Made by a program: the position numbers and the translations under genes. Under the pieces are notes generated by a model. It saw only the letters and a list, made by a program, of their open reading frames with translations, did no database searches and was not told the origin of the DNA. Shown one piece after another: positions 2-51,105 of a stretch of DNA of 51,460 bases (position 1 is the stretch's first letter; every line of letters begins with the position of its first letter). The DNA is from an uncultured Woeseiaceae bacterium (lineage in GTDB: Bacteria > Pseudomonadota > Gammaproteobacteria > Steroidobacterales > Woeseiaceae), in NCBI GenBank assembly GCA_905480215.1, contig CAJQPL010000025.1:1-51460 (forward strand), given 5' to 3'.

Positions 2-1618
2 GACAAATTAGCGGCACTGCCGCCAGAACTCCTGAGTGTCAGGAACATGACGGCAGAACGGCAGTACTTCAAAGCCGAACGACTTTGCCGGCACTTCCTG
101 AAAGCCAACCCCAAATATGTAGAAGGTATGCGACTGCTGGCCGATCTGGGCGTCAAGTCCGGCGTCCTGGACGACGCAGAGTTCCTACTCGAAAGTGCAG
201 TGGAATTCGAACCCGACAATGCGTTTGCTCGAAACGACTACATGACGGTTCTTTACCGCCGGCAAAAATACGAACAGGCACTCGCTCAAGCCAATATTCT
301 GGTTGAAAGTGATCCCGATAATCTCGACCACCAAATCAGTCTGGCAAATCAGTCTGTCGCTGTTGGGAACTACGACGTCGCGCTCGAAATTTATGATCGC
401 GCACTAATCGCAAGGCCAGCCAGTGCAGAACTGCACCTTGTGCACGGACATGCGCTGAAGACGATCGGACAGATTGATCCGGCCGTCAATGCCTATCGTA
501 ATGCTTATCAGGCGAGACCGAACTTTGGTGATGCCTATTGGAGTCTTGCGAACTTAAAGACTTACCGTTTCGTTGACGATGAAGTGTCATCAATGCAGAT
601 AAACGAAGCGGATCACTCCACTCTCGTAGAGGATCGCGCGCACTTGTGCTTTGCGCTGGGCAAACATTTCGAAGACACCAACGCGTACGCAGATTCGGCC
701 GAATACTATTTGCGCGGCAATGCACTGCGCAAGTCTCAAATGCGATACGATGCGGGTCGTATGACGCATCGCATAAAATTGCAGCAAAAGCACTGCAGTG
801 CGGCACTCTTTGCTCAACATGCAGGGAGCGGACACCAAGCAGCGGACCCCATTTTCATCGTCGGCCTACCGCGAGCCGGATCAACCTTGCTGGAACAGAT
901 TCTGGCATCTCACTCGCAAGTCGATGGCACGCTCGAACTACCTAACGTTCCAGCTTTGGCATTTCGCCTCGCGGGACGTCATCGCGTCGATGAAGAACCC
1001 TTGTACCCTGCGGTATTGCGTGACCTCACCGATAAAGAACTGCAAAAGATGGGTGAGGACTTCATCAAGGATACCCGCGTACATCGACTAGATGCAGCGT
1101 TTTTTATTGACAAGAACCCGAATAATTTTCGTCACATTGGACTTATCCACCTGATGCTACCCAATGCCAAGATCATCGACGCACGACGCCACCCAATGGC
1201 GTGTTGCTTTAGTGGCTTTAAGCAACTGTTTGCATCTGGCCAGGAGTTTACCTATGGCCTCGAGGAAATCGGCAGCTACTACAAAGACTATGTCGACTTA
1301 ATGGATCATTGGGACACGGTACTTCCGGGCAAGGTTCTGCGTGTGCAATATGAAGACGTTGTTGCCGATCTTGAGACTGAAGTTCGGCGCATGCTCGACT
1401 ATTGTGGGTTGCCGTTTGAACAGGCCTGCTTGAGTTTCTTTGAGACAGAGCGCTCGGTACGCACGCCTAGCTCGGAGCAAGTGCGGCAACCGATCTATCA
1501 ATCCGGTCTGGAACAATGGCGTTCATTCGAGCCCTGGCTGGACCCATTAAAGAATGCTTTAGGACCGCTACTGGATCGCTACCCAATCGATCAACAAGCA
1601 TGCGATCAAAAACCATGA
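2..1618 (+). CDS. TPR-containing sulfotransferase family protein (5' end cut by window)
   Basis: The frame is open from base 2 with no stop, so the ATG at 47 is probably internal and the gene begins outside the window. Counting from 47, the first 230 or so residues are helical tetratricopeptide-like repeats. A sulfotransferase domain begins near residue 268 with the loop GLPRAGSTLLEQIL, which in this superfamily holds the 5'-phosphosulfate of the donor PAPS. A later RRHPMACCFSGF segment looks like the 3'-phosphate-binding region. Members transfer sulfate to proteins, glycans or small molecules; the acceptor cannot be told here. The GAGG that serves as ribosome site for the next gene overlaps the stop codon of this one, so both are likely on one mRNA. 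Confidence 0.85.
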   Translation, partial: DKLAALPPELLSVRNMTAERQYFKAERLCRHFLKANPKYVEGMRLLADLGVKSGVLDDAEFLLESAVEFEPDNAFARNDYMTVLYRRQKYEQALAQANILVESDPDNLDHQISLANQSVAVGNYDVALEIYDRALIARPASAELHLVHGHALKTIGQIDPAVNAYRNAYQARPNFGDAYWSLANLKTYRFVDDEVSSMQINEADHSTLVEDRAHLCFALGKHFEDTNAYADSAEYYLRGNALRKSQMRYDAGRMTHRIKLQQKHCSAALFAQHAGSGHQAADPIFIVGLPRAGSTLLEQILASHSQVDGTLELPNVPALAFRLAGRHRVDEEPLYPAVLRDLTDKELQKMGEDFIKDTRVHRLDAAFFIDKNPNNFRHIGLIHLMLPNAKIIDARRHPMACCFSGFKQLFASGQEFTYGLEEIGSYYKDYVDLMDHWDTVLPGKVLRVQYEDVVADLETEVRRMLDYCGLPFEQACLSFFETERSVRTPSSEQVRQPIYQSGLEQWRSFEPWLDPLKNALGPLLDRYPIDQQACDQKP

Positions 1619-1629
1619 GGTGTGAATAA

Positions 1630-2649
1630 ATGACGGACGTAGTGCTCTCACTGGATGACATCCATTCGCTTGCCAGCAAATGCCTGACCGTGCACGGATG
1701 CGATGCGAACAACGCAAATGCTGTAGCCGATGTTATAACCGCCGCAGAACGTGACGGCTGCCATTCGCACGGCCTGATGAGACTCGCCGGCTACGTTGCT
1801 GCACTCGACAGCGGCAAAGTCGACGGCCATGCCAGTCCGGAGGTGCAACAACTCGCGCCGGCCGTCGTACGCGTAGACGGCAACGGCGGTTTCGCACCGT
1901 TAGCACTAGCAGCAGGCCGCGCACCACTAATTGAGAGCGCCAGGAAAACCGGTATAGCGGCCTTGTCACTGGTCAACATTCATCACTTCGCCGCGTTGTG
2001 GTCCGAAATTGAACCGATTGCCGAAGCCGGACTCGCCGCGATAGCCTGCGTGTCTTATATGCCGGCGGTCATTCCCGCCGGCGGCAACAAAGCCCTGTAC
2101 GGAACGAATCCATTCGCATTCGGTTGGCCACGACGGAATTCGCCGCCGCTAATTTTTGATCAGGCTTCCTCGGTCATGGCGAAGGGTGAAGTCATGCTCG
2201 CCGCACGTGAAGGACACGCGCTGCCAGATGGTGTGGGCGTTGATGCTGACGGCAATCCCAGCAACGACCCGGATGAAGTTCTAAAGGGCGCCCTGCTGGC
2301 CTTCGGCGGCCACAAAGGATCGTCGATTGCCATGATGATCGAGTTGTTTTCCGGTGCGTTGATCGGTGAGAGTCACAGTTTTGAGGCTAAAGAACGGGAC
2401 AATGGCGACGGCGGACCACCACAAGGCGGCGAGCTCATTATTGCAATGGATCCCAACTTGTTCGGCGATGCCGATGGCTGGGCTGATCACGCCGAAAAAC
2501 TGTTTGATCAAATCCTGAAGCAGGATGGCGCCAGGTTGCCGAGCGCACGCCGCTACCACAATAGAACGTCTGCTTTGACATCAGGAGTGACGATGTCCGA
2601 GGCTGTATACGAAAAAGTTGTCGCACTGAGCAAAGCTAACGACGCGTAA
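1630..2649 (+). CDS. Ldh family NAD(P)-dependent oxidoreductase (malate/lactate/cyclic imine reductase type)
   Basis: At 339 residues this has the usual length of the Ldh (YjmC/AllD/DpkA) family, whose members reduce 2-oxoacids or cyclic imino acids such as 1-pyrroline-2-carboxylate with NAD(P)H. The family SHG motif is at residues 46-48 (catalytic His47), with Arg51 after it. GTNPFAFGWP and the late GGHKGSS segment are typical cofactor and substrate regions. The start is 11 bp after the preceding stop, with GAGG at 1617-1620. The exact substrate cannot be read from sequence. Next to a probable 2-oxoglutarate-semialdehyde dehydrogenase and two betaine-type transporters, a role in breakdown of a cyclic or N-substituted amino acid is plausible but inferred. 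Confidence 0.85.
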   Translation: MTDVVLSLDDIHSLASKCLTVHGCDANNANAVADVITAAERDGCHSHGLMRLAGYVAALDSGKVDGHASPEVQQLAPAVVRVDGNGGFAPLALAAGRAPLIESARKTGIAALSLVNIHHFAALWSEIEPIAEAGLAAIACVSYMPAVIPAGGNKALYGTNPFAFGWPRRNSPPLIFDQASSVMAKGEVMLAAREGHALPDGVGVDADGNPSNDPDEVLKGALLAFGGHKGSSIAMMIELFSGALIGESHSFEAKERDNGDGGPPQGGELIIAMDPNLFGDADGWADHAEKLFDQILKQDGARLPSARRYHNRTSALTSGVTMSEAVYEKVVALSKANDA

Positions 2650-2703
2650 AAAAATCGATCGATCATTGATTAACGACACTGATCAACAACACTGAGAGCA
2701 AAT

Positions 2704-4149
2704 ATGTCTGACAAAATTCATCCGAACTTCATCGATGGCGAGTGGGTTGAAGCCAAAGCAACAATAGCGAACGTCAATCCGTCGGATACGTCCGATAGTC
2801 TCGGACAATTCTCCAGTGCTACGGTCGATGACATGTCGGCCGCAATAACGGCCGCGAAAGCCGCGTTTCCAGCGTGGTCGCAAAGCGGCCTTGAAGCGCG
2901 CAAAGCCATCCTCGATTTCATCGGCGACGAGCTCATTGCGCGCAAAGAAGAGCTCGGTCGATTACTCAGTCGCGAGGAAGGCAAACCACTGGCCGAAGGC
3001 ATCGGTGAAGTGGCTCGGTCAGGGCAATTCTTCCATTACTTCGGCGCAGAAGTTCTACGCCAGATGGGCGAATTTGCATCCTCCGTTCGACCCGGTGTCG
3101 ATATTGAAGTCAGCAGAGAAGCGCTTGGTGTCGTCGGCATCATCACGCCCTGGAACTTCCCCACGGCGGTTGCCGCGTGGAAAATCGCTCCCGCTCTGGC
3201 GTTCGGTAATAGCGTGGTATTGAAGCCGGCAGAACTGGTTCCTGCAAGTGCTTGGGCACTGACGGAAATAATCAGTCGTAGTGGATTACCCAAGGGCGCA
3301 TTCAACCTGGTCGTCGGCTCAGGTTCAGTTGTTGGCGATGCTATGGCTCGTTCTGCTGATGTCGATGCGATCTCATTTACCGGCTCGGTCAATATAGGAC
3401 GTCAAATCGCACGCAACGCGATTGAGAACATGTCACGTGTGCAGCTTGAAATGGGCAGCAAAAATGCATTGCTGGTGATGGACGACGCTGATATTGACCT
3501 CGCCGTTCAATGCGCGATTAACGGCGCCTACTTCGGTACCGGACAGAAGTGCACCGCATCATCACGCCTGATCGTACAAAGTGGTATTCACGACGAATTC
3601 GTAGCGAAAATGAGCGCTGCAATGAATGACCTTAAGGTCGGCAATGCACTAACAGCTGGCACACAGATCGGACCGGTTGTTGATCAAAGACAGCTCGAGC
3701 AAAATTTACGTTACATGCAGATTGCCGCCGATGAAGGCGCCGAGCTGGTGCAGGGCGGCGATACACCAACGCTGGACACCGATGGCTACTACATGACCCC
3801 TGCCCTGTTTGCGGCAAGTAACAATGCCATGCGCGTCAACCGTGAGGAAATTTTTGGTCCGGTCGCTTGCGTAATCAAGGTCGATGATTATGACGAAGCA
3901 CTCGCTGTTTCCAATGACTCCGACTTTGGGCTTACTGCCGGCATCATGACGACTTCATTAAAACAGGCCGCGCATTTCAAACGCCATTCGAAGTCGGGCT
4001 GCGTCATGGTCAATCTGCCCACCGCCGGAACCGATTATCACGTACCCTTTGGTGGTCGAAAGTCATCAAGCTATGGACCGCGCGAGCAAGGTCAGTACGC
4101 GAAAGAGTTTTACACTATCGTCAAAACCAATTACAGCCAACCCTACTAG
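2704..4149 (+). CDS. aldehyde dehydrogenase, 2,5-dioxovalerate (2-oxoglutarate semialdehyde) dehydrogenase-like
   Basis: This is a full-length (481 aa) cytosolic NAD(P)-dependent aldehyde dehydrogenase. The oxyanion Asn is at 151 in TPWNFP, the general-base Glu at about 249 in LEMGSKN and the catalytic Cys at about 283 in GQKCTASSR. The C-terminal segments DYHVPFGG and SYGPREQG, together with the motif spacing, resemble the subgroup that oxidises 2-oxoglutarate semialdehyde to 2-oxoglutarate, as in hydroxyproline and sugar-acid breakdown; I give this from memory of the family. It lies 54 bp after the Ldh gene and 10 bp before the M19-like gene. The aldehyde class is certain; the substrate is an inference. 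Confidence 0.85.
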   Translation: MSDKIHPNFIDGEWVEAKATIANVNPSDTSDSLGQFSSATVDDMSAAITAAKAAFPAWSQSGLEARKAILDFIGDELIARKEELGRLLSREEGKPLAEGIGEVARSGQFFHYFGAEVLRQMGEFASSVRPGVDIEVSREALGVVGIITPWNFPTAVAAWKIAPALAFGNSVVLKPAELVPASAWALTEIISRSGLPKGAFNLVVGSGSVVGDAMARSADVDAISFTGSVNIGRQIARNAIENMSRVQLEMGSKNALLVMDDADIDLAVQCAINGAYFGTGQKCTASSRLIVQSGIHDEFVAKMSAAMNDLKVGNALTAGTQIGPVVDQRQLEQNLRYMQIAADEGAELVQGGDTPTLDTDGYYMTPALFAASNNAMRVNREEIFGPVACVIKVDDYDEALAVSNDSDFGLTAGIMTTSLKQAAHFKRHSKSGCVMVNLPTAGTDYHVPFGGRKSSSYGPREQGQYAKEFYTIVKTNYSQPY

Positions 4150-4159
4150 GTTCAATATC

Positions 4160-5140
4160 ATGCTAGTCATAGATGGCCTTCAATACGTCAACTGGAACCG
4201 AGCGCTCTTCGCAGAAGCCCGCGATGGCGGCGTGAACGCGATTCACGTCACGATTGCATACTGGGAGAATACTCAGGAGACCGTAGCGAACATCGACAAT
4301 TGGCAGACCCTGTTCAAGGAACACGGTGATTTGATCATGCCGGTGCGGCTTGCAGCCGATATAGTCGAGGCACAAAAACTTGGCAAGGTCGGCATAATTC
4401 TCGGCTTTCAGAATTGCTCACCTATCGAAGACGATTTTCGAAAGGTTGAGTATTTCCATGAGCGTGGCGTGCGCATTATGCAGCTCAGCTATAACAACCA
4501 AAGTCTGCTTGCCACGGGGTGTTACGAAGATGCAGACGCCGGCGTGACCCGCTTTGGCCGTGAAGTCATCCGCGAAATGAATCGACTCGGCATGATCATC
4601 GACATGTCGCACAGCGCGGAACGTTCGACTCTGGATGCCATAGAGCTGTCGACCCGTCCGATAGCGATTACGCATGCCAATCCCGCATCGTTTCACGATG
4701 CTTTGCGCAATAAATCCAATACAGTCATCAAAGCACTTGGTGCATCCGGCGGCATGATTGGTTGCAGCCTGTATCCGTTTCATCTGAAGAACGGCAGTGA
4801 CTGTACAGTCCAAGACTTCTGCATGATGATTGCAGAAACCGCAGACTTGATCGGTGTCGAGCATATCGGAATCGGTTCGGACCTGTGCCAAAACTGGGAC
4901 TACTCAATACTCGAGTGGATGCGTTCCGGCCGATGGACAGCGACTGCAGACTACGGCGAGGGATCTGCCGAAAACAAAGAGTGGCCACAGCAACCGAACT
5001 GGTTCGCAAACAGCACGCACTTTGGCAATATCGCGGCCGGTTTATCGGCAGTCGGGCTCAGCGATATCGATGTCGCTAGCGTCATGGGCGGCAACTGGCT
5101 GAGATTCTTCGAACACTCATTCGCAGCAGCAGGCGCATAA
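4160..5140 (+). CDS. M19 (renal dipeptidase-like) amidohydrolase-fold protein with altered zinc site
   Basis: The start at 4160 (326 aa) avoids a long overlap with the dehydrogenase, which ends at 4149. Overall sequence matches peptidase M19: the GCYE...G-T-FGREVIREMNRLGMIIDMSH block, the ITHANP block, RN at 183-184, GIGSD at 237-241 and a final GGNWLRFF. M19 enzymes cut dipeptides, often with a D-residue, using two zinc ions. Here the usual N-terminal DGHND is DGLQY, so the His and Asp ligands are Leu7 and Tyr9, and the bridging Glu is Gln84. The second-site His151 and His172 remain. It may therefore bind one metal or do different chemistry. I see no signal peptide, so it is probably cytosolic despite the usual name membrane dipeptidase. 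Confidence 0.85.
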   Translation: MLVIDGLQYVNWNRALFAEARDGGVNAIHVTIAYWENTQETVANIDNWQTLFKEHGDLIMPVRLAADIVEAQKLGKVGIILGFQNCSPIEDDFRKVEYFHERGVRIMQLSYNNQSLLATGCYEDADAGVTRFGREVIREMNRLGMIIDMSHSAERSTLDAIELSTRPIAITHANPASFHDALRNKSNTVIKALGASGGMIGCSLYPFHLKNGSDCTVQDFCMMIAETADLIGVEHIGIGSDLCQNWDYSILEWMRSGRWTATADYGEGSAENKEWPQQPNWFANSTHFGNIAAGLSAVGLSDIDVASVMGGNWLRFFEHSFAAAGA

Positions 5141-5150
5141 CGGAGCTATT

Positions 5151-6869
5151 GTGAACAAACTAGCTGAAGCAGTTTTGCCGTTAAGAACAGCTGATCGCGT
5201 AATGAATCTCGAGCGCCTCGGTAGCTTGCATCCTTTTCGCCTGAGTTTCATGCGCACGCTGGTGCGTAACATCATGCAGCAACAGTGGCGCATCACGCAT
5301 CGGCGATTCGATCTCGATGCAGAAGGATATGGTACTGCTATCTACGAGATAGAAACGCCAAACGAACTGTTCAGCTTTGTCGTCTTTGCCCACTTCATCG
5401 ACGACTCGTTGCGAAGCGATCGTGTAATCGCAGATGAGTGGGATATGACCGTTACCCTTTGCGAGGGGCAGGTCGATGACGAACATTTGTCCATGTTGCG
5501 CGCCAACGTTCCCTTACAGGAACAGGGCCGTATTGATTCGCGGTCAATCGTACTGTCACGTGCCAATAAGAGTGTGCGCAACTTTGAGTACGTTGTCGGC
5601 GAACTCGCCGCGGGACGCCAGCCGGCATTGGCCAACATCGCAAAGGTTGGCTACCTGTACCGCACAACAGCTGCCTATGGCAGCGGTAAATTCGGTATGG
5701 CCACCTGGCAAAAAGTTGCGCAAAATCATCCGGACCTTGCGCGACCTTTTGCGGCTGAAATGCTGAGTTGCTATTTAATCCGACAGTTTAGCCTCGAACA
5801 AGCTGATCACATTGCCCGACACCGAGCGCCAACTACCGCGGTCGTCATGGCGACAGAAATTAAGCGCTACTTCGGTATCGGCAACGCCACTGGTCTTGGC
5901 ATGGCGCCGTATCTAACCAATCACCCACTGCTTGTGAGTCGCTGGATTGAAGTACGGGAAACCGCCCTCGCCCGCGTCGTCGCAAATGGTGAAAATGGCG
6001 CCGACTATCATCGTGAGTTGGGAAGATTGCTGCACCGAGCACAGCAGCACCTTCTTGAAATTGACACTGACAACACCCAACAGCAGCAATGCAATACAAA
6101 GACAGCAGACGAACTCGGCAGAATAGCCAGCTCGCTCGCTAGGCAGCCGGCAGAGAGCTGGAAAACTCTTATTGATTCGGTTGCCAACACTTACACAATG
6201 GAAACTCAGGAAGTTTTGAATTCTCTGTTAATGGAAATGTATCCTGAGCTGATTGATGACCTCGAGAAGGACATGAGCCTCGTTGAGGATTATCAACTCG
6301 ATCCGCAGCAAACATTGACGGACGCAATTAAAGTGATTGAAGATCGCTATTCCTGGGCGCTTGCCATCGACTTTGACCTTGCCGCAAGTCAGGAAACCTT
6401 CTGGTACCGCTCAGAAGAGAAGATGGAGCCTCGGCTCGGCGTTCGCGGCATCGATCCAGGCTGCGAAAAGAGCATAGATATTGCATTGGCATTCAACATT
6501 CGACGTTGTTATGAGCAACTCGTTGCAGAGCAGAAGGATGCTCCGCAGCGAAGCATCGCAGAGTTTGCATTAGTGCATCCTCAGCATCGTAGTGTATTGC
6601 GACGAATACAAACCATGTCAGCCACTTTTTATGGCGATATTCAGGCAAATCTTGTCGATGCCGAAGTGCAGCCTATGCATCTTTTGCGCTGCAAGTTATC
6701 GTTCTTCGGCGTTAGCAAGTTTGACCCTAAATCCCGACTATGGGTCAGAAATACAATGTTTCAGGGCGCACCGCTGACCAGTGATATCGGTGCCGAGTTT
6801 AAGGACGACTGGTACTTTCCGATCATGCCATCTGCTAGCAGCGCGAACGACGGTGCGAATGCCGATTAG
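5151..6869 (+). CDS. conserved protein of unknown function (572 aa)
   Basis: The start is GTG with GGAG at 5142-5145, 10 bp after the previous stop. I do not recognise a characterised family. The protein looks soluble, with no signal peptide or membrane segment. It has a mixed N-terminal half ending in the distinctive GIGNATGLGMAPYL block at about residues 243-256, a polar linker with four consecutive Gln near residue 310, and an acidic helical region. The C-terminal half has several aromatic-rich stretches (WYRSEEK, DDWYFP). No nucleotide-binding P-loop or obvious metal motif is seen. The stop overlaps the next gene by 11 bp, so the two products are probably made together and may act together. 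It most likely serves the same pathway as its dehydrogenase and transporter neighbours. Confidence 0.8.
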   Translation: MNKLAEAVLPLRTADRVMNLERLGSLHPFRLSFMRTLVRNIMQQQWRITHRRFDLDAEGYGTAIYEIETPNELFSFVVFAHFIDDSLRSDRVIADEWDMTVTLCEGQVDDEHLSMLRANVPLQEQGRIDSRSIVLSRANKSVRNFEYVVGELAAGRQPALANIAKVGYLYRTTAAYGSGKFGMATWQKVAQNHPDLARPFAAEMLSCYLIRQFSLEQADHIARHRAPTTAVVMATEIKRYFGIGNATGLGMAPYLTNHPLLVSRWIEVRETALARVVANGENGADYHRELGRLLHRAQQHLLEIDTDNTQQQQCNTKTADELGRIASSLARQPAESWKTLIDSVANTYTMETQEVLNSLLMEMYPELIDDLEKDMSLVEDYQLDPQQTLTDAIKVIEDRYSWALAIDFDLAASQETFWYRSEEKMEPRLGVRGIDPGCEKSIDIALAFNIRRCYEQLVAEQKDAPQRSIAEFALVHPQHRSVLRRIQTMSATFYGDIQANLVDAEVQPMHLLRCKLSFFGVSKFDPKSRLWVRNTMFQGAPLTSDIGAEFKDDWYFPIMPSASSANDGANAD

Positions 6870-7605
6870 AGTCTCAGTCAACGAATTATCGGCGCTACTG
6901 AAGCGCTGTTTCGAAGGTCTGGGATATCGCTCTGGTGACTATGCGGACGCCGCAACGGCGTGCATCTGGATGGAAACGCATGCACTGAACGGTCTCGCAC
7001 TGCTTATGGATTCCTGGCAAAGTTTAGTAGACGGGGCAGCGCTGTCGCCGACAATCCGAACAACGACCGGCGCAAATATTGCTGTCGATGCCAATCGCGT
7101 CAGCTTGCTGGTGTGTGGCCAATCCCTTGCAGAGTTAGCGATATCAAAGTTGCAAGATGGTGGCCTTAACCGCATCGATGTATACGCTTGCCGAAATCGA
7201 ATTGCGATTGTGCCGGGGATCGCCGCAATAGCACAGCGTGGGTACTCGGCACTGGCGCATTGGCGATGCAAGAACTTTCAGTACTACGCAGTTGCATCGG
7301 CCGGGAATGCGATGCCACGAATTGCAAAGTTCACACTCACCGAACCGAAGCAGCGCGCAGCAGAAACCCTGCATCTGATCTGTAGCCGAGCGGCCGCAGA
7401 AATCGAATCTGCATTGCGATCATTAAATGACATGGAGCGTCGCGTGACCCCCATAGTAGAACCCGTCTCCATGCTGGAAAGTTTCAACAACAGCATCGAG
7501 CACGGTTTACAGGTGGATAATGACATCTGGATGCGACTCAATTCAGCCGCGGATGCGGTTCTTGTTAAGGCGACAGAGCAATCTCGCCGCGGCGCTGGAG
7601 CGTAG
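6859..7605 (+). CDS. DUF3726-like protein of unknown function
   Basis: I chose the ATG at 6859 (248 aa), which overlaps the preceding gene by 11 bp; an upstream ATG at 6781 would overlap it by 89 bp. The N-terminus (RVSVNELSALLKRCFEGLG, then a W-x-E-x-H-A-L-x-G-L-x-L pattern) resembles what I remember of DUF3726, a small uncharacterised family found near similar dehydrogenase and M19 genes. There are no membrane helices or catalytic motifs I can name. A run of hydrophobic segments separated by small residues suggests a compact alpha/beta protein. The stop is one base from the start of the first BCCT gene. The family call is tentative; the gene itself is well supported by frame and coupling. 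Confidence 0.7.
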   Translation: MPIRVSVNELSALLKRCFEGLGYRSGDYADAATACIWMETHALNGLALLMDSWQSLVDGAALSPTIRTTTGANIAVDANRVSLLVCGQSLAELAISKLQDGGLNRIDVYACRNRIAIVPGIAAIAQRGYSALAHWRCKNFQYYAVASAGNAMPRIAKFTLTEPKQRAAETLHLICSRAAAEIESALRSLNDMERRVTPIVEPVSMLESFNNSIEHGLQVDNDIWMRLNSAADAVLVKATEQSRRGAGA

Positions 7606-7606
7606 A

Positions 7607-9148
7607 ATGACAATGAACAATACGACCCACAAAGCGGAGCCATTCTCAAGCCGCGCAATTGACTGGCCAACGCTGCTAATCAGTGGTGGCTTCCTTATTG
7701 CATTTGTCGTCGCGGCAATCGTCAACATCGATTTTCTTTCTGCACAAGTGAATGTCGCCTACGCCTTTTCAACGCGAATATTTGGTGCTTACTGGCAAGT
7801 TTTGCTGCTAGCGACATTTCTAATTGGTTTGTATGTAGCGATGTCATCTGGCGGCAATGTACGCCTCGGTAATCGCGCGCAACCGGAAATGGAAACCTAC
7901 AAGTGGTTCAGCATTATCATGTGCACATTGCTGGCCGGCGGCGGCGTTTTCTTCGCGGCCTCTGAACCCATGGCACACTTTCTGGCGCCACCGCCATTAT
8001 TTGCTGTCGAGGCGCAGACGCCACAGGCCGTCTACCCGGCTCTTGCACAAAGCTACATGCACTGGGGCTTTCTGGCCTGGGCGATTCTCGGCAGTCTTAC
8101 AACCATTGTATACATGCACCTGCACTACAACATGGGATTGCCACTCAAGCCACGAACCTTGTTGTATCCGGTTTTTGGTGATCGTGTCATGCGCGGCTGG
8201 TTTGGCGGAATGGTCGACGCCGCTTGCGTCATCGCTGTTGTCGCCGGTACTGTCGGTCCAATTGGTTTTCTCGGCTTGCAGGTGAGCTACGGCCTTTCAA
8301 ATCTGTTTGGCTTCACCGACACATATTTAAGCCAATCGCTGATCATTCTATTCCTGATTGGCATCTATACCGCCTCGACTGTTTCCGGAATTCATCGCGG
8401 TATACAGATGCTCAGTACGTTCAACGTTGCACTCGCGCTGCTACTTATTGCCTTCATGCTAATTGCCGGTCCGTCGGCTTTCATCTTCGACAGCTTCATT
8501 CACTCCACCGGTCTGTACGTATCCGAGTTTGTGTCAATGGCAACCTACCGCGCGGATGCTGGCTGGTTGAATAGCTGGACGTTATTCTTTTGGGGTTGGT
8601 TTCTCGGCTATGGGCCGCTGATGGCGATGTTCATTGCGAGAATTTCCAACGGTCGAAAAATTCGACAAATAATATTGTGCGTTTCCATAGTGGCACCGCT
8701 GGTAACAACCTTCTGGTTTACGATCGTTGGCGGCACCGGCGTTGCATTCGAATTGGCCGATCCCGGCGTCATTTCAATTCCCCTGGAAGGCAACAACATG
8801 CCTGCCGCACTGCTTTCAATTACCCAACAACTGCCATTCGGCTTTCTGATATCTATCCTGTTCCTGATATTAACAACCATTTTTGTGGCAACGACCGGCG
8901 ACTCGATGACCTACACGATCTCAATGGTAATGACGGGAACGGATGACCCACCAGCCCTGCTGCGAATGTTCTGGGGCATAATGATGGGCGTCCTGGCAAT
9001 GATTCTCATCTCAATCGGCTCCGGAGGGATCACAGCTCTGCAGGCCTTTATTGTTGTTACAGCGGTACCGGTATCGCTAATTCTGCTGCCCTCGTTGTGG
9101 GTTGCGCCACGCATTGCTAGAGAACTCGCCAAAGGAGAACAGCATTGA
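7607..9148 (+). CDS. BCCT family betaine/carnitine/choline-type transporter, divergent
   Basis: The start is ATG at 7607 (513 aa) with GGAG at 7597-7600; an upstream frame extension would overlap the previous gene. About twelve hydrophobic segments and the family landmarks are present: MHWGFLAWA, a NMGLPLKPRTLLYPVFG stretch, and FIARISNGR after the aromatic box. BCCT proteins import quaternary ammonium or related compounds with sodium, with protons, or by exchange. The box near residues 326-340 reads WFLGY where BetP-type carriers and the next gene read WWISW. The glycine-rich third helix is AGGGVFFAA rather than the common AGxGIGLMF. Both changes suggest a different ligand or coupling. It overlaps the second BCCT gene by 4 bp. 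Confidence 0.9.
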   Translation: MTMNNTTHKAEPFSSRAIDWPTLLISGGFLIAFVVAAIVNIDFLSAQVNVAYAFSTRIFGAYWQVLLLATFLIGLYVAMSSGGNVRLGNRAQPEMETYKWFSIIMCTLLAGGGVFFAASEPMAHFLAPPPLFAVEAQTPQAVYPALAQSYMHWGFLAWAILGSLTTIVYMHLHYNMGLPLKPRTLLYPVFGDRVMRGWFGGMVDAACVIAVVAGTVGPIGFLGLQVSYGLSNLFGFTDTYLSQSLIILFLIGIYTASTVSGIHRGIQMLSTFNVALALLLIAFMLIAGPSAFIFDSFIHSTGLYVSEFVSMATYRADAGWLNSWTLFFWGWFLGYGPLMAMFIARISNGRKIRQIILCVSIVAPLVTTFWFTIVGGTGVAFELADPGVISIPLEGNNMPAALLSITQQLPFGFLISILFLILTTIFVATTGDSMTYTISMVMTGTDDPPALLRMFWGIMMGVLAMILISIGSGGITALQAFIVVTAVPVSLILLPSLWVAPRIARELAKGEQH

Positions 9149-10695
9149 AGGATCAATCTGACAACAAGGACGCCAGCACTAACGATATTGAGCACGAGGT
9201 TGGTGATCATAATGTCGAGGTTATGGGCCTCGATATCCATAATCCAGTGTTCGCGATTTCGGCGATATTGGCGGTTACCTTTGTCGCACTCACGCTGCTC
9301 TTTCAGGAACAGGCCGGTACTGTCTTCGGCGAGATGCGTGTCTGGATCACTTCGCAGTTCGATTGGTTCTTCGTGATCACCGCGAATTTTCTAGTGCTTT
9401 TTTGCCTTGTGGTCGCATTTTCAAAACTCGGTCGAGTACGGCTTGGCGGCGATGGCGCGAAACCAGAGTACGGCTACCCCGGCTGGCTGTCGATGCTGTT
9501 TGCCGCCGGTGTAGGAATCGGCTTGATGTTTTTCGGTGTTCTTGAGCCGGTAACGCATACGCTCAATCCGCCCTTAGGCATCGACCCAGCGAATATTGAA
9601 GTGGCGCGAGCTGCCGGTATGTCCGCTGCGATAACACACTGGGGATTACACGCCTGGGCGATCTACGCAATCGTCGGCCTGTCACTCGCGTTCTTTTCCT
9701 TCAACCGTGGTATGCCATTAACCCTGCGTTCGGCGTTTTATCCGTTAATCGGAAAAGCCGTGTGGGGACCGGTCGGTCACTTTGTCGATATCACGGCCGT
9801 GCTTGCAACGCTGTTTGGCCTCGCCGTATCTTTGGGCTTTGGCGCTGAACAAATTTCTGGCGGCCTCAACTACCTTTTTGATATACCAATTAACAACACC
9901 ACGAAAGTATTGTTAATCATCGCCATTATTGCCGTTGCACTGGTTTCAGTTATTGCTGGCCTCGAAAAAGGCGTTAAGCGACTGAGCGAAATCAATATGA
10001 GCATGGCCGCTGCTTTGCTGCTGTTCGTTATGATTGCCGGCCCGACCCTATTCATATTGAAGACTATTTTTACCGCGACCATCGACTACGTCTCCTACCT
10101 GCCGCGCTTAAGCAATTGGATCGGTCGTGAAGACTCAGCCTTTTTACACGGCTGGTCTACGTTCTATTGGGCTTGGTGGATATCCTGGTCTCCCTTTGTC
10201 GGCATGTTCATCGCACGAGTCAGCTACGGCCGCACAGTGCGGGAGTTCATTACCTGGGTGCTTATCATTCCTACCATTATCGGCATCGTATGGATGTCGA
10301 CGTTTGGCGGTACGGCGCTCAAGCAATTGATCAATGACGGTTATCGCGGCGTCGCGGATTCAGTTCCTGAACTCGCGCTCTTCAAGATGCTCGAATTACT
10401 CCCGTTCACCGAAATTGTCTCTGCTATCAGCGTGTTACTGATCGCCATCTTCTTCATCACGTCAGCCGATTCAGGCTCGCTGGTTATGGACATTATCACC
10501 GCAGGCGGCAAGCTCGATGCACCGATAAGACAGCGCGTTTTCTGGTGCATGCTGGCTGGAATGGTCGCTATTGCCCTAATGCTTGGCGGCGGCATGGCCT
10601 CGTTGCAAGCATTGACGATCTCAATCGGATTGCCATTTGGCGTGGTGTTATTACTGATGTGCATCGGTCTGACGAAGGGATTACGCGAAGGCTAG
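9145..10695 (+). CDS. BCCT family betaine/carnitine/choline-type transporter, canonical
   Basis: The start is TTG at 9145, inside the stop of the previous gene, with GGAG at 9134-9137 at good spacing; the encoded 516 residues match the family length. Canonical features are AGVGIGLMFFG in helix 3, ITHWGLHAWAIYA near 160-175, and the complete Trp box WAWWISWSPFVG near 342-353, followed by MFIARVSYGRTVREF. The N-terminal 25 or so residues are acidic and cytoplasmic. It probably imports a trimethylammonium-type compound with sodium. Two BCCT genes in direct overlap at the end of a catabolic operon suggest import of the pathway substrate or of two related ones, rather than only osmoprotection. It ends 6 bp from convergent kdsB. 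Confidence 0.93.
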   Translation: MKDQSDNKDASTNDIEHEVGDHNVEVMGLDIHNPVFAISAILAVTFVALTLLFQEQAGTVFGEMRVWITSQFDWFFVITANFLVLFCLVVAFSKLGRVRLGGDGAKPEYGYPGWLSMLFAAGVGIGLMFFGVLEPVTHTLNPPLGIDPANIEVARAAGMSAAITHWGLHAWAIYAIVGLSLAFFSFNRGMPLTLRSAFYPLIGKAVWGPVGHFVDITAVLATLFGLAVSLGFGAEQISGGLNYLFDIPINNTTKVLLIIAIIAVALVSVIAGLEKGVKRLSEINMSMAAALLLFVMIAGPTLFILKTIFTATIDYVSYLPRLSNWIGREDSAFLHGWSTFYWAWWISWSPFVGMFIARVSYGRTVREFITWVLIIPTIIGIVWMSTFGGTALKQLINDGYRGVADSVPELALFKMLELLPFTEIVSAISVLLIAIFFITSADSGSLVMDIITAGGKLDAPIRQRVFWCMLAGMVAIALMLGGGMASLQALTISIGLPFGVVLLLMCIGLTKGLREG

Positions 10696-10701
10696 GCAGA
10701 C

Positions 10702-11448
10702 TTAGTGTGCCGTCTCGTCAGCGGCGCGTTGCAAGTCATCCTCGGTATCTACTCCTATACCGGGCCGCATGGCAGGCACGCCAATTTTGATCGTCATTCC
10801 TAACGACAGGGCGCGCAGTTGTTCAAGTTGCTCGCTTAACTCAAGTGACGATGGCGCTGAGCTAACGAGTTTGCGCAGTACCCCACAGCGGTAGGCGTAG
10901 ATACCGTGGTGGTGCAAAGCGGATTCGAAGGCCAGGTCCTGCTGCTCTGTCGCTCGTGCGTACGGGATCACCGCGCGCGAAAAATACAGCGCATTGCAAT
11001 TGTTATCACAAATTACTTTGACGCAATTTGGACTTTCAAAGTCCTCACGATTGAGAAACGGTGACGCAAGTGTCGCAATATCCGCGCCATCATCAGCGAG
11101 TAGTTCTGCGCACTGACTAATAAGCGCCGCCGGCATGGACGGTTCGTCGCCCTGTAAATTGACAACGATCTGTGCGTCATCCCAGTCCAGCAGGTCCGCG
11201 ACTTCAGCAATTCGTTCCGTACCCGACTGATGGTGCGTTGCCGTCATACAAACGGTCGCCCCGAATGACTCCGCTACTGTAGCAATGCGCTCGTCATCAG
11301 TCGCAATGACCACTTGGCGCGCTTCGCTCTCAACACCCCGTTCGTAGACGTGCTGAATCATTGGCTTGCCGTTGATCTGGCGCAGTGGCTTGCCCGGCAA
11401 TCGAGCAGATGCATACCGTGACGGAATAACGACCACAAAATCTGTCAT
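10702..11448 (-). CDS. kdsB: 3-deoxy-manno-octulosonate cytidylyltransferase (CMP-Kdo synthetase)
   Basis: At 248 aa this has the usual KdsB length. It activates Kdo with CTP to CMP-Kdo for lipopolysaccharide inner core synthesis in the cytosol. The N-terminal nucleotide-binding motif PSRYASARLPGKPL, the NLQGDEP segment, and ALYFSRAVIPY are all present, as is the His-rich HHHGIYAYR region. It is the last gene of the comEC-exbB-exbD-msbA-lpxK-kdsB series and overlaps lpxK by 4 bp (ATGA), so translation is coupled. The small YcaR/Trm112-type gene that often sits between lpxK and kdsB in enterobacteria is absent. Confidence 0.97.
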   Translation of the reverse strand: MTDFVVVIPSRYASARLPGKPLRQINGKPMIQHVYERGVESEARQVVIATDDERIATVAESFGATVCMTATHHQSGTERIAEVADLLDWDDAQIVVNLQGDEPSMPAALISQCAELLADDGADIATLASPFLNREDFESPNCVKVICDNNCNALYFSRAVIPYARATEQQDLAFESALHHHGIYAYRCGVLRKLVSSAPSSLELSEQLEQLRALSLGMTIKIGVPAMRPGIGVDTEDDLQRAADETAH

Positions 11449-48415: not shown

Positions 48416-50134
48416 TCACGCAGGGCGCTCGCGTAACGGTGCAATCTGCTCAACGACCAACTGCGGGTTCTCGATGCCACGAAACTCATTCACATCGAGC
48501 CGGAAAGCGAGTTGCACGACACCGCGGTAGGCTGGGCCGGCCTGATTGAAAGCAATCGCGTCAACAATCTTGCCACCATCCGCTGGACGCACTCGTAACT
48601 TAAGGTGTTTTTCGCCAACCGTACGTTGTTCAACAACTGAAAATTCGCCACTCCAAAGGGGCTCCGGGAACGCCGAGCCCCACGGTCCTGCGTCTCGCAA
48701 AGATCGCGCGAAACCCAGATTGATGGCCGAGTCCGGCAGCGTCCCGTCGGTCACGATCGCACCACTGAAGTCTGCGTTTGGATACAGGCGTCGCATTTGC
48801 TCCGCAGCCGCCGTTTTGAACTGCTGCAAGGATGATTCAGCAATCGTCAAACCGGCCGCCATCGCGTGGCCGCCAAATTTTCCGAACAATCCCGGGTGCA
48901 CCGTTGAAATTGCTTCCAGCAAATCCCGGATATGCACACCGGGGATTGAGCGTCCGGATCCCTTAAGAAATTTGTCGTTTTCACGAGCAAAAGCGAATAC
49001 CGGGCGATGGCAGCGCTCTCGAACTCGTGCGGCGATCAAGCCAACAACACCCTGATGCCACGCCGCGTCGTAGACGCACACACAATCCGGCCAACGCTGT
49101 TCACCGAGCTTATCCACATAGGCGAAAGCCTGATCACGCATAGTCGCCTCGATATCACGCCGGTCCTTGTTGATCATATCCAGTTGCTGAGCGTATTCAC
49201 TTGCCGTTTCTTCACTGTCGGTGAGCAGACACTCGATGCCCACAGAAATATCTTCGAGACGGCCTGCTGCATTTATTCGCGGTCCGGCGGCAAAGCCTAG
49301 GTCGCTACTCACGCAGCGCTGCGGCGTACGACCAGCCTGTTGCAACAATGCCCTGATGCCGGGTAGCGCCCGGCCGGCGCGAATCCTCGCCAAGCCCTGC
49401 TGCACGAGAACACGATTGTTATGATCCAGTGGCACGACGTCAGCTACGGTACCGAGTGCGACCAGATCCAGATATTTAGCAGGCACTTTCGCGGCGCCGG
49501 CGTCGCCCTGCTCCTGCAACATTCGGCCAAGCCTGGCCAGCAGGTAAAACGCCACACCGACGCCAGCCAGATTGCGGCTTGGAAACTGACTGTCTTCGAG
49601 GTTCGGGTTCACGATAACGGCCGCCGCCGGCAGTTCCTTCCCCGGCAGGTGGTGATCGGTCACCAACACAGGAATACCGCATTCATTGGCTCGAGCCACG
49701 CCCGCGATACTCGATATGCCGTTGTCGACAGTAATGAGCAAGCCCGGCGTCCGCTGTGCCGCGACATCGACAATTTCAGGTGACAAGCCGTAACCATATG
49801 CGAAGCGATTCGGCACCAGGTATTCGACGTCGTTAAAACCAAATTCGCGTAAGCAGCGCAGCATTAGAGCCGTACTGGTTGCTCCATCAACGTCGAAATC
49901 TCCAATGACGATAATCCGTTGCTCGCGCTTCTCGATGATAAGGCTGGCGGCTGCATCAACATTTTCAAGCGCACTGACAGGCGCCAATTTCGCCAATCTG
50001 TAGTCAAGCTGGTCTGCCGACGTCAGGCCGCGCATCGCAAACAGGCGTGCGTGTAACGGATCGATGTCGCCCAGTTTTTGCATCAGGTCCGCCGCTGGCA
50101 TGGGACGGCAGATAATGGGTCTTGCTGAACTCAC
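48416..50134 (-). CDS. recJ: single-stranded-DNA-specific exonuclease RecJ
   Basis: RecJ degrades single-stranded DNA 5' to 3' in recombination and mismatch repair. The 572 aa product has the DHH-family motifs VIGDFDVDGATST, VTDHHLPGK, NPN and the DHHA1 region with GGHAMAAGLTI. The start is GTG at 50134, overlapping the upstream gene stop by 4 bp (GTGA). It is 16 bp upstream of prfB. Confidence 0.96.
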   Translation of the reverse strand: MSSARPIICRPMPAADLMQKLGDIDPLHARLFAMRGLTSADQLDYRLAKLAPVSALENVDAAASLIIEKREQRIIVIGDFDVDGATSTALMLRCLREFGFNDVEYLVPNRFAYGYGLSPEIVDVAAQRTPGLLITVDNGISSIAGVARANECGIPVLVTDHHLPGKELPAAAVIVNPNLEDSQFPSRNLAGVGVAFYLLARLGRMLQEQGDAGAAKVPAKYLDLVALGTVADVVPLDHNNRVLVQQGLARIRAGRALPGIRALLQQAGRTPQRCVSSDLGFAAGPRINAAGRLEDISVGIECLLTDSEETASEYAQQLDMINKDRRDIEATMRDQAFAYVDKLGEQRWPDCVCVYDAAWHQGVVGLIAARVRERCHRPVFAFARENDKFLKGSGRSIPGVHIRDLLEAISTVHPGLFGKFGGHAMAAGLTIAESSLQQFKTAAAEQMRRLYPNADFSGAIVTDGTLPDSAINLGFARSLRDAGPWGSAFPEPLWSGEFSVVEQRTVGEKHLKLRVRPADGGKIVDAIAFNQAGPAYRGVVQLAFRLDVNEFRGIENPQLVVEQIAPLRERPA

Positions 50135-51105
50135 TCGCCCGCCGGAGCTTTAAGCAAGGGCGAGCTTCGCCGCCAAATTCGCAGCGCATGTGAACGCTGC
50201 ACATCCGCGCGCAAACCATCGCGAAACAACAACATCAGGTGGCTCAGGCGCCCGGAGCGCAGGGCATGCCGCAGCTCCTCCAGGCTAGACTCAAGCATTT
50301 CCGAATTGTCTTCAGATTCGGGAACTACAGCTACAAAGCCACCAACAGAAGCCTGCAGACAATTGGCAATACTGCCGGGCCACGGCTCGGCGACGCCGGT
50401 TGCGGCGTACCAGTAGCCCGTTAGCAGTGGGTCATCGGCAAATAAAGGCGGTTGCGGCTGCGTGATTTGCTCGGGCGCAACGCCACCACCCCATAACCAA
50501 AGTGAATTGACCAATTGCTTACCATCGCTTTCACGCTCGATGTTCACTTCGTGTTCGTGCAATGCCATTTCAATTTCGCCGATCAAATTACGGTGCGTCG
50601 CCTTGTCATCACCGGCCGGAAGAAATGCTTCCGGGTTTTGCTGATCGACAACATTGGCCGGCATTTGAGCAGTCGCGATTGGCGTCCGGGAACTGACGTA
50701 GCCGCAAGCACCCAAGCGCGTGAATCCGATGCTTTGATCGCTCCCTAGAGACTGTTGTAGATGATCAGTCAGCGCCCGCAGTTCTGTCGACGTCACGTCG
50801 CCATCCGCAAAAGTGTGCAAACAGAGTTTGTCGAGTTGCGGCTCCAGGTACACAGGGTCAGCACCTGCGATCCAGTTTGTCGGTCGGTCACCGGTTTGAC
50901 CCCACATACGCAAAGCCGCGAAGCCCGTGTCTGGATAGGGCACGCCAAGTTCCTGAACAACGCGCGCCAGCAATTCCTTGGGACCCGCTTCGTCTGTAAG
51001 GTCGGATTGCGCCAACCACGCATGCAAAGCATTGTCTTGCAGTCGGCCGGCCAAAACTCTCGGCAAGACCACGATTGCGGTATTTTTGTCATATGATGCG
51101 TTCAC
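50131..51105 (-). CDS. RpfE-like protein (cofactor-independent phosphoglycerate mutase-like, regulatory family)
   Basis: The 324 aa protein (GTG start) has segments such as FTRLGACGYVSS and NSLWLWGGGVAP. The latter, with the placement before recJ, matches the family called RpfE in Xanthomonas, distantly related to phosphoglycerate mutase ApgM. Its biochemical role is not settled. It is coupled to recJ by a 4 bp overlap, the arrangement seen in the Xanthomonas rpf region, but rpfF, rpfC and rpfG do not occur in this window. No signal peptide is seen. Confidence 0.75.
   Translation of the reverse strand: MNASYDKNTAIVVLPRVLAGRLQDNALHAWLAQSDLTDEAGPKELLARVVQELGVPYPDTGFAALRMWGQTGDRPTNWIAGADPVYLEPQLDKLCLHTFADGDVTSTELRALTDHLQQSLGSDQSIGFTRLGACGYVSSRTPIATAQMPANVVDQQNPEAFLPAGDDKATHRNLIGEIEMALHEHEVNIERESDGKQLVNSLWLWGGGVAPEQITQPQPPLFADDPLLTGYWYAATGVAEPWPGSIANCLQASVGGFVAVVPESEDNSEMLESSLEELRHALRSGRLSHLMLLFRDGLRADVQRSHALRIWRRSSPLLKAPAGE

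Follow-up and report, generated by a model that had tools for sequence, protein, structure and literature searches.

An operon of an uncultured Woeseiaceae bacterium probably serves the catabolism of an N-methylated cyclic betaine, with homarine as the most likely substrate

Which compound is broken down by a tightly packed set of enzyme and carrier genes in an uncultured Woeseiaceae bacterium (GCA_905480215.1)? The genes lie at 1630-10695 of contig CAJQPL010000025.1, and the whole stretch of 51,460 nucleotides that was analysed is referred to here as the window. It begins at base 1 of the contig (C25 in our numbering) and belongs to an incomplete genome of 2.17 Mb that is 65% complete. A first-pass annotation, made from the DNA letters, had described a seven-gene catabolic operon that imports an N-substituted or cyclic amino acid and converts it to 2-oxoglutarate. 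We propose that the locus probably encodes the import and catabolism of an N-methylated cyclic betaine. The most likely compound is homarine (N-methylpicolinate), which would be degraded via 2-(methylimino)glutarate. The roles of the genes, and the chemistry of an uncharacterised protein of 572 aa that we call p572, are predictions.

All seven open reading frames (ORFs) exist on the + strand, co-directional and nearly gapless. With the most plausible starts the intergenic spacings are 54, 10, 10, -11, 1 and -4 bp, in agreement with the first-pass description of gaps of at most 54 bp and overlaps (-11 and -4 bp). The families named at that stage were also recovered by Pfam, which gives Ldh_2, Aldedh, Peptidase_M19, DUF3726 and twice BCCT, with p572 remaining without a match. 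The features are:

1-1618, + strand: 3' part of a TPR-sulfotransferase (Pfam Sulfotransfer_3 and TPR), frame open at the contig start
1630-2649, + strand: Ldh_2-family reductase, DpkA-like (PF02615, E 1.7e-96)
2704-4149, + strand: aldehyde dehydrogenase (ALDH; PF00171)
4160 (most plausible ATG)-5140, + strand: M19-like amidohydrolase with altered metal site (PF01244, Peptidase_M19)
5151-6869, + strand: p572, uncharacterised conserved protein, 572 aa (GTG start; ATG at 5202 possible)
6859-7605, + strand: DUF3726 protein (PF12525, weak PF02615)
7607 (most plausible ATG)-9148, + strand: carrier BCCT-A (PF02028)
9145-10695, + strand: carrier BCCT-B (PF02028; TTG start)
10702-11448, opposite strand: convergent gene at the right edge of the unit, whose protein we take, by eye, to be KdsB-like

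The gene set recurs far beyond the window. A search of 299 genomes of the phylum found p572 encoded in 22, the window genome included, and a scan of named genomes gave at least 80 p572 loci. Hosts among the matches listed are Pseudomonas, Marinobacter, Halomonas, Vibrio, Photobacterium, Psychrobacter, Amphritea, Neptunomonas, Ruegeria, Paraburkholderia and Brevibacillus; carriers also include Aminobacter, Shinella and Caballeronia. Judged from record titles, many hosts belong to marine genera. We compared 108 loci fetched with p572 (80 from named genomes, 4 plasmids and 24 from other genomes), in which genes were counted by tblastn; at least two pairs (L027/L091 and L029/L097) have identical p572 rows, being the same locus from two collections. 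M19 genes were present in 101 loci, ALDH in 82, BCCT in 75, LysR in 59, RidA in 56, Ldh in 19 and SoxA-family genes in 17, and DUF3726 accompanied p572 in 100. A core set of ALDH, M19-like protein, BCCT carrier, p572 and DUF3726, often with LysR, thus recurs in most of the 108 loci, and for this reason the grouping is more than chance. The first-pass annotation had made its proposal depend on such conservation of the neighbourhood, which is borne out in most loci. p572 also occurs in 168 plasmid records, one of which is typed conjugative (Pseudomonas sp. MPC6). On this plasmid of an Antarctic Pseudomonas (L141), a p572 operon with RidA and BCCT genes adjoins a ring-hydroxylating dioxygenase gene.

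The best PDB match of the window Ldh protein is 1wtj, the delta1-piperideine-2-carboxylate reductase DpkA (E 8.3e-82), which is matched over nearly the full length (residues 10-332), and the SHG motif is present. The imine-reducing Ldh of the first pass therefore holds in outline as a prediction, although the substrate of the window enzyme, in contrast to that of DpkA, is a putative one. The ALDH matched 45 NCBIfam models, with NF052305, 2,5-dioxovalerate dehydrogenase, as the best (493.5 bits, below the cut-off of 750) and 2-hydroxymuconic semialdehyde dehydrogenase at 336.3 bits. An ALDH that makes 2-oxoglutarate, as had been suggested, is favored by the identity of the closest model, since 2,5-dioxovalerate is 2-oxoglutarate semialdehyde, but not by the score, which stays under the cut-off. 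For the M19-like protein the best PDB match is 2i5g, named 'amidohydrolase' (E 1.3e-64). That the M19 protein is altered had already been pointed out; the change in its metal site is seen across 80 sequences (the window protein and 79 relatives, only ORFs of 300-400 aa being counted). We mapped the binuclear metal ligands, which we take to be HxD, E, H, H and D, to the alignment positions, with the Glu position taken from the alignment with 2i5g. At the HxD positions 78 of the sequences have L and 78 have Y, and the Glu position is Q in every one of the 80; two His and one Asp are invariant. The window protein hence lacks the ligand set of an M19 membrane dipeptidase.

A further enzyme came into view in the relatives. 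Genes of the N-methylglutamate dehydrogenase (Mgd) type are found near the operon in seven of them (L059, L074, L098, L100, L106, L052 and L055). In the first five a soxA-like gene follows 3' of DUF3726, or of the BCCT gene behind it, with soxB-, soxD- or soxG-like neighbours; the family search behind these assignments covered L100 and L074. In L052, a near relative with almost the gene order of the window, the Mgd-type genes are divergent and lie 328 bp from a TonB receptor gene, and in L055 they are located ~11 kb from the operon on the same contig. The window genome has a copy on contig C66, with an alpha subunit at 241-3054 and delta and beta-like genes in a cluster that is incomplete at the contig end. 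On this short contig (L173, 241-9302) the Mgd-like cluster adjoins a second sarcosine oxidase alpha gene, which scores above the cut-off.

The alpha subunits of the five loci are 56-58% identical to a reference on an Acinetobacter plasmid, and that of the window genome 54%. The reference gene adjoins purU, folD, glnT and genes for a glutamine amidotransferase and an FMN glutamate synthase, a set that we take to be the N-methylglutamate pathway. In a tree with tblastn-derived rows, the seven linked alphas, the window copy and the Acinetobacter reference group in a single clade, separate from the other 35 rows of the SoxA family (Shimodaira-Hasegawa-like approximate likelihood ratio test, SH-aLRT, 100). 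This clade has ten rows with the window Mgd counted twice, and the canonical SoxA of the window genome also stands twice in the tree; an earlier alpha comparison had left out the short soxA-like ORF L041_00. SoxA-family neighbours from Shinella (L140), Phaeobacter (L142) and Hellea (L087) fall in the other SoxA-family clade. By this grouping the linked SoxA-family genes are predicted to encode Mgd.

The N-methylglutamate pathway runs through GMAS, MgsABC and MgdABCD. The operon genomes share the Mgd clade with it, but a search for its synthase half was negative in the eight genomes that have a linked Mgd or, as the window genome, their own. In these eight, MgsA gave partial matches of 28-36% or none, whereas it is present at 56-78% in each of four further genomes that carry a clade-type Mgd, three without p572 (G158, G190 and G008) and one with it (G055). 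The GMAS query scored 131-164 bits in the eight compared to 288-838 bits in the four. Mgd thus lacks its usual source of N-methylglutamate in the eight operon genomes, and the operon is therefore the natural candidate source.

We arrive at 2-(methylimino)glutarate as the probable shared intermediate because ALDH, amidohydrolase, imine reductase or RidA, and Mgd would all fit it. Homarine would yield this skeleton if its ring were opened between C5 and C6 and C6 were lost as formate. In the proposed route, a TonB receptor and the BCCT carriers would import homarine, and p572, probably with a non-catalytic DUF3726 partner, would open the pyridinium ring so that the nitrogen retains its methyl group along with what had been C6, and a C5 semialdehyde arises. 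This semialdehyde could then be oxidised by the ALDH, and the M19-like protein might act as hydrolase or deformylase that strips the one-carbon (formyl) remnant and gives the enamine/imine 2-(methylimino)glutarate. In the window version the DpkA-like Ldh would reduce this compound to N-methylglutamate, from which Mgd, encoded on the other contig, would release glutamate and a C1 unit. In another version RidA would replace Ldh and Mgd, probably with 2-oxoglutarate and methylamine as products. The 2-oxoglutarate end point of the first pass is accordingly to be revised: the linked Mgd points to N-methylglutamate, and 2-oxoglutarate is likely to arise directly in the RidA version alone. Homarine is favored as substrate because of this chemistry, the many marine genera among the hosts and a cited statement on Mgd in homarine catabolism, to which we now turn.

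An operon for homarine is said to carry the name homABCDER (five genes plus a regulator), a number into which ALDH, M19, BCCT, p572, DUF3726 and LysR would fit. Conserved bacterial homarine catabolism is reportedly the subject of Ferrer-Gonzalez et al. 2026, Nat Microbiol 11:1531. According to one sentence in PMC13390433, which cites Ferrer-Gonzalez et al. 2026, Mgd takes part in homarine catabolism. Going by this sentence the pathway has probably been described already, and the suggestion that the route may be new is doubtful. The likeness is that Mgd is reported to participate there and is linked to the operon here, and the window genome encodes Mgd as expected for such a pathway (the C66 copy in its incomplete cluster). 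The window version has Ldh, a second BCCT and the sulfotransferase gene, and it lacks LysR inside the operon. No other title or abstract among the literature matches listed describes homarine catabolic genes, and the homarine passages of two expression papers on Ruegeria pomeroyi (PMC9038784, PMC9723723) name none. A passage of the latter states that no confirmed homarine transporter is known in this organism (PMC9723723). Passages in PMC12817926 describe homarine as an osmolyte that diatoms contain at high concentration and report its uptake by Ruegeria pomeroyi in a matter of hours.

Both carriers of the window are clear BCCT proteins (PF02028, 483 bits for BCCT-A and 595.7 bits for BCCT-B, cut-off 27), so that import of an N-substituted cyclic acid by BCCT, as first suggested, holds in outline as a family-based prediction. 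Most BCCT genes that adjoin p572 in relatives share 51-61% identity with BCCT-A, which thus appears to be the type common to most relatives having a BCCT and is our proposed importer. BCCT-B reached 510.5 bits with the glycine-betaine BCCT model NF047988, below the cut-off of 650, and scored above the cut-off of TIGR00842. The tandem pair is also present in L052. In Shinella a glycine-betaine-type ABC transporter replaces the BCCT, and purU is nearby.

The step assigned to p572 falls to a protein without a match to any known family. No significant match was found in Pfam (single sequence and 43 relatives), NCBIfam or PHROG, nor in the PDB by sequence or by profile; 83 of the 572 positions are invariant across 43 sequences. 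The AlphaFold2 model has a predicted local distance difference test score (pLDDT) of 90.3 and a predicted template modelling score (pTM) of 0.91, and residues 1-275, modelled separately, reach a pLDDT of 80.2. Structure comparison covered the PDB and viral models: neither the whole chain nor residues 1-275 gave a Foldseek PDB match at E<=0.001, and the whole model had no significant match among the viral models. The best VIA-align Z was 4.0 for the whole model and 4.3 for residues 1-275, within the Foldseek candidates that VIA-align covers. Given this limit, the two stretches modelled (whole chain and residues 1-275) and the coverage of PDB and viral models, we call the predicted fold 'not matched' rather than new.

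The DUF3726 protein shows a weak Ldh_2 match (16.2 bits in the window, 45.8 bits in relative L098). An alignment of 12 DUF3726 proteins to 6 Ldh proteins shows all 12 to be without both the SHG motif and the middle segment of Ldh; one of the six Ldh rows (L106) is also without SHG. Since motif and middle segment are missing, it resembles a degenerate Ldh, and judged by this alignment the DUF3726 protein is a truncated or degenerate Ldh_2 homologue, which may serve p572 as a partner. No paper naming DUF3726 was found in the literature search. More tentatively, and with clearly less confidence than we have in the operon's general role, we suggest that p572 and DUF3726 could found an unrecognised enzyme class whose fold is so far absent from the PDB and which would open N-alkylpyridinium rings with neither a known cofactor motif nor an oxygenase that can be recognised. 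The product would then be finished by interchangeable RidA or Ldh plus Mgd modules.

The distribution of these modules was analysed in the 89 of 108 loci that are at least 14 kb long. RidA is present in 51 of them, and none of these has Ldh or a SoxA-family gene, compared to 16 and 15, respectively, of the other 38 (Fisher p 1.3e-7 for Ldh and 4.1e-7 for the SoxA family, kinship not corrected for). On the p572 tree the label RidA versus Ldh/Sox needs five changes, of which strong branch support requires at least four; among the RidA carriers nest Marinomonas (L066) and the Halieaceae loci L100 and L106. RidA and Ldh/Mgd thus exclude each other in these loci and would function as alternative finishing modules.

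Divergent relatives extend this pattern. A p572 of ~31% identity is encoded on Sinorhizobium (S.) meliloti pSymB in the following set:

13223-25168 of L176 (S. meliloti pSymB): IclR, divergent p572, 242-aa protein, M19, ABC transporter, aminotransferase, succinate-semialdehyde dehydrogenase, two RidA

The 242-aa protein occupies the DUF3726 position and showed no DUF3726 similarity in the tblastn count. By its gene content the set appears to encode a related pathway. We dropped a link to trigonelline through this organism, as the p572 relative lies on pSymB, whereas a passage in PMC4207669 has the wild type growing on this compound and a strain without pSymA failing to do so. In L107 (2415-12399), genes for an MTTB-family methyltransferase, a DMGDH-like and a creatinase-like protein, M19, p572, DUF3726 and Ldh stand in a row, a possible demethylation variant. 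p572 and M19 may therefore form a core to which varying finishing enzymes are added. In family f49, three genomes (G083 with L019/L025, G099 with L016/L024 and G183 with L020/L023) have two p572 copies each in different contexts, which suggests two substrates.

Several observations weigh against homarine degradation via 2-(methylimino)glutarate. The Pfam scan of the eight proteins recognised no oxygenase or electron donor for ring opening. The Mgd tree contains only one synthase-linked reference, and the missing MgsA of the window genome proves little because this genome is 65% complete. Among ten operon genomes searched, two are without a clade-type Mgd alpha and have only SoxA-family alphas of 35-36%: G305, which contains L051 (by p572 the nearest relative), and G307 (L057). 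In the 299-genome sample, where two candidates per genome were scored, clade-type Mgd occurs in 2 of 22 p572 genomes versus 3 of 277 others, and a SoxA-family match at E<=1e-150 in 15 of 22 versus 46 of 277. Seven p572 genomes (families f12 and f13) have no such match; six of these seven loci carry RidA. The exclusion of RidA and Ldh follows phylogeny, and independent-pair tests were not significant. Since genome-wide co-occurrence of p572 and clade-type Mgd is weak, it is linkage and the missing synthase that carry the argument.

The same operon type might instead act on another N-methylated heterocycle or betaine, such as trigonelline, N-methylproline or a relative, and still end in N-methylglutamate or 2-oxoglutarate. 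Carriers such as Pseudomonas, Aminobacter, Shinella, Caballeronia and a Brevibacillus speak for this, as do divergent versions with other finishing enzymes (the aminotransferase and succinate-semialdehyde dehydrogenase of S. meliloti, the MTTB and DMGDH-like genes of L107); the window version, however, has Ldh, its genome has Mgd, and this fits the Mgd role stated for homarine catabolism, so that we regard another substrate as rather unlikely. The trigonelline pathway TgnABCDE of Acinetobacter opens an N-methylpyridinium carboxylate to a semialdehyde, on which an ALDH and a hydrolase then act. The window operon would share this order of steps but differs in that the eight scanned proteins include no flavin monooxygenase or reductase family and p572 is without a match to a known family. 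The carnitine, hydroxyproline and trigonelline gene sets were rejected as candidates, since the enzymes that we take to be their signatures had no family match among the eight proteins; for hydroxyproline and carnitine, the first-pass annotation had noted the same absence.

A different mechanism is also conceivable, in which p572 hydrates C6 and the hydrolytic opening keeps all six carbons; the ALDH would then oxidise N-methyl-2-aminomuconate semialdehyde, RidA would be a 2-aminomuconate deaminase, and the substrate of Mgd would be an N-methylated amino acid with six carbons. Deaminases of 2-aminomuconate exist in the RidA family, and such a route would agree with the absence of a recognised oxygenase in the operon. 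Against it, the ALDH prefers the C5 2,5-dioxovalerate model over that of 2-hydroxymuconic semialdehyde dehydrogenase (493.5 versus 336.3 bits) and the linked Mgd falls in the clade of an enzyme encoded in an N-methylglutamate cluster, which makes the six-carbon route unlikely. That the locus mainly serves osmolyte uptake, with unrelated genes as neighbours, would agree with two BCCT carriers of which one is close to a glycine-betaine model; yet the enzymes co-occur even in loci without BCCT, and Shinella has an ABC transporter instead, so that we consider this highly improbable.

The unit is probably larger than its first description. Its seven genes stood up, but not its start at 1630, since the sulfotransferase frame reaches to 1618, with 11 bp between it and Ldh. 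A sulfotransferase orthologue lies upstream of the operon in five loci (L051, L052, L055, L057 and L063), 58.6-79.6% identical and 664-679 aa long in four of them, being cut by the contig end in L051. The TPR-sulfotransferase is thus probably the upstream member of a unit of eight genes or more that is interrupted by the contig end. Clustering placed a TonB-receptor-type gene upstream of the sulfotransferase in four of the five loci, confirmed by Pfam in one of the four; the two genes form a conserved upstream block in several relatives. Promoter-like sites (6 versus a shuffle mean of 9.3) lay below and terminator-like sites (19 versus 12.3, +1.7 standard deviations) above expectation, and neither was used as evidence. 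Between 15369 and 51105 ten large ORFs were scanned with Pfam, nine of which fall in common families (a ComEC-type competence protein, two FtsX/MacB permeases, Mfd, an RNA uracil-5 methyltransferase, LepA, a succinate-dehydrogenase-type flavoprotein, a class II tRNA synthetase and RecJ), while ORF 50131-51105 had no Pfam match at E<=1e-10.

If homarine is indeed the substrate, p572 together with DUF3726 would be a marker for homarine turnover. Two families without a role would gain one, and the ring-opening chemistry of a specific enzyme would become testable.

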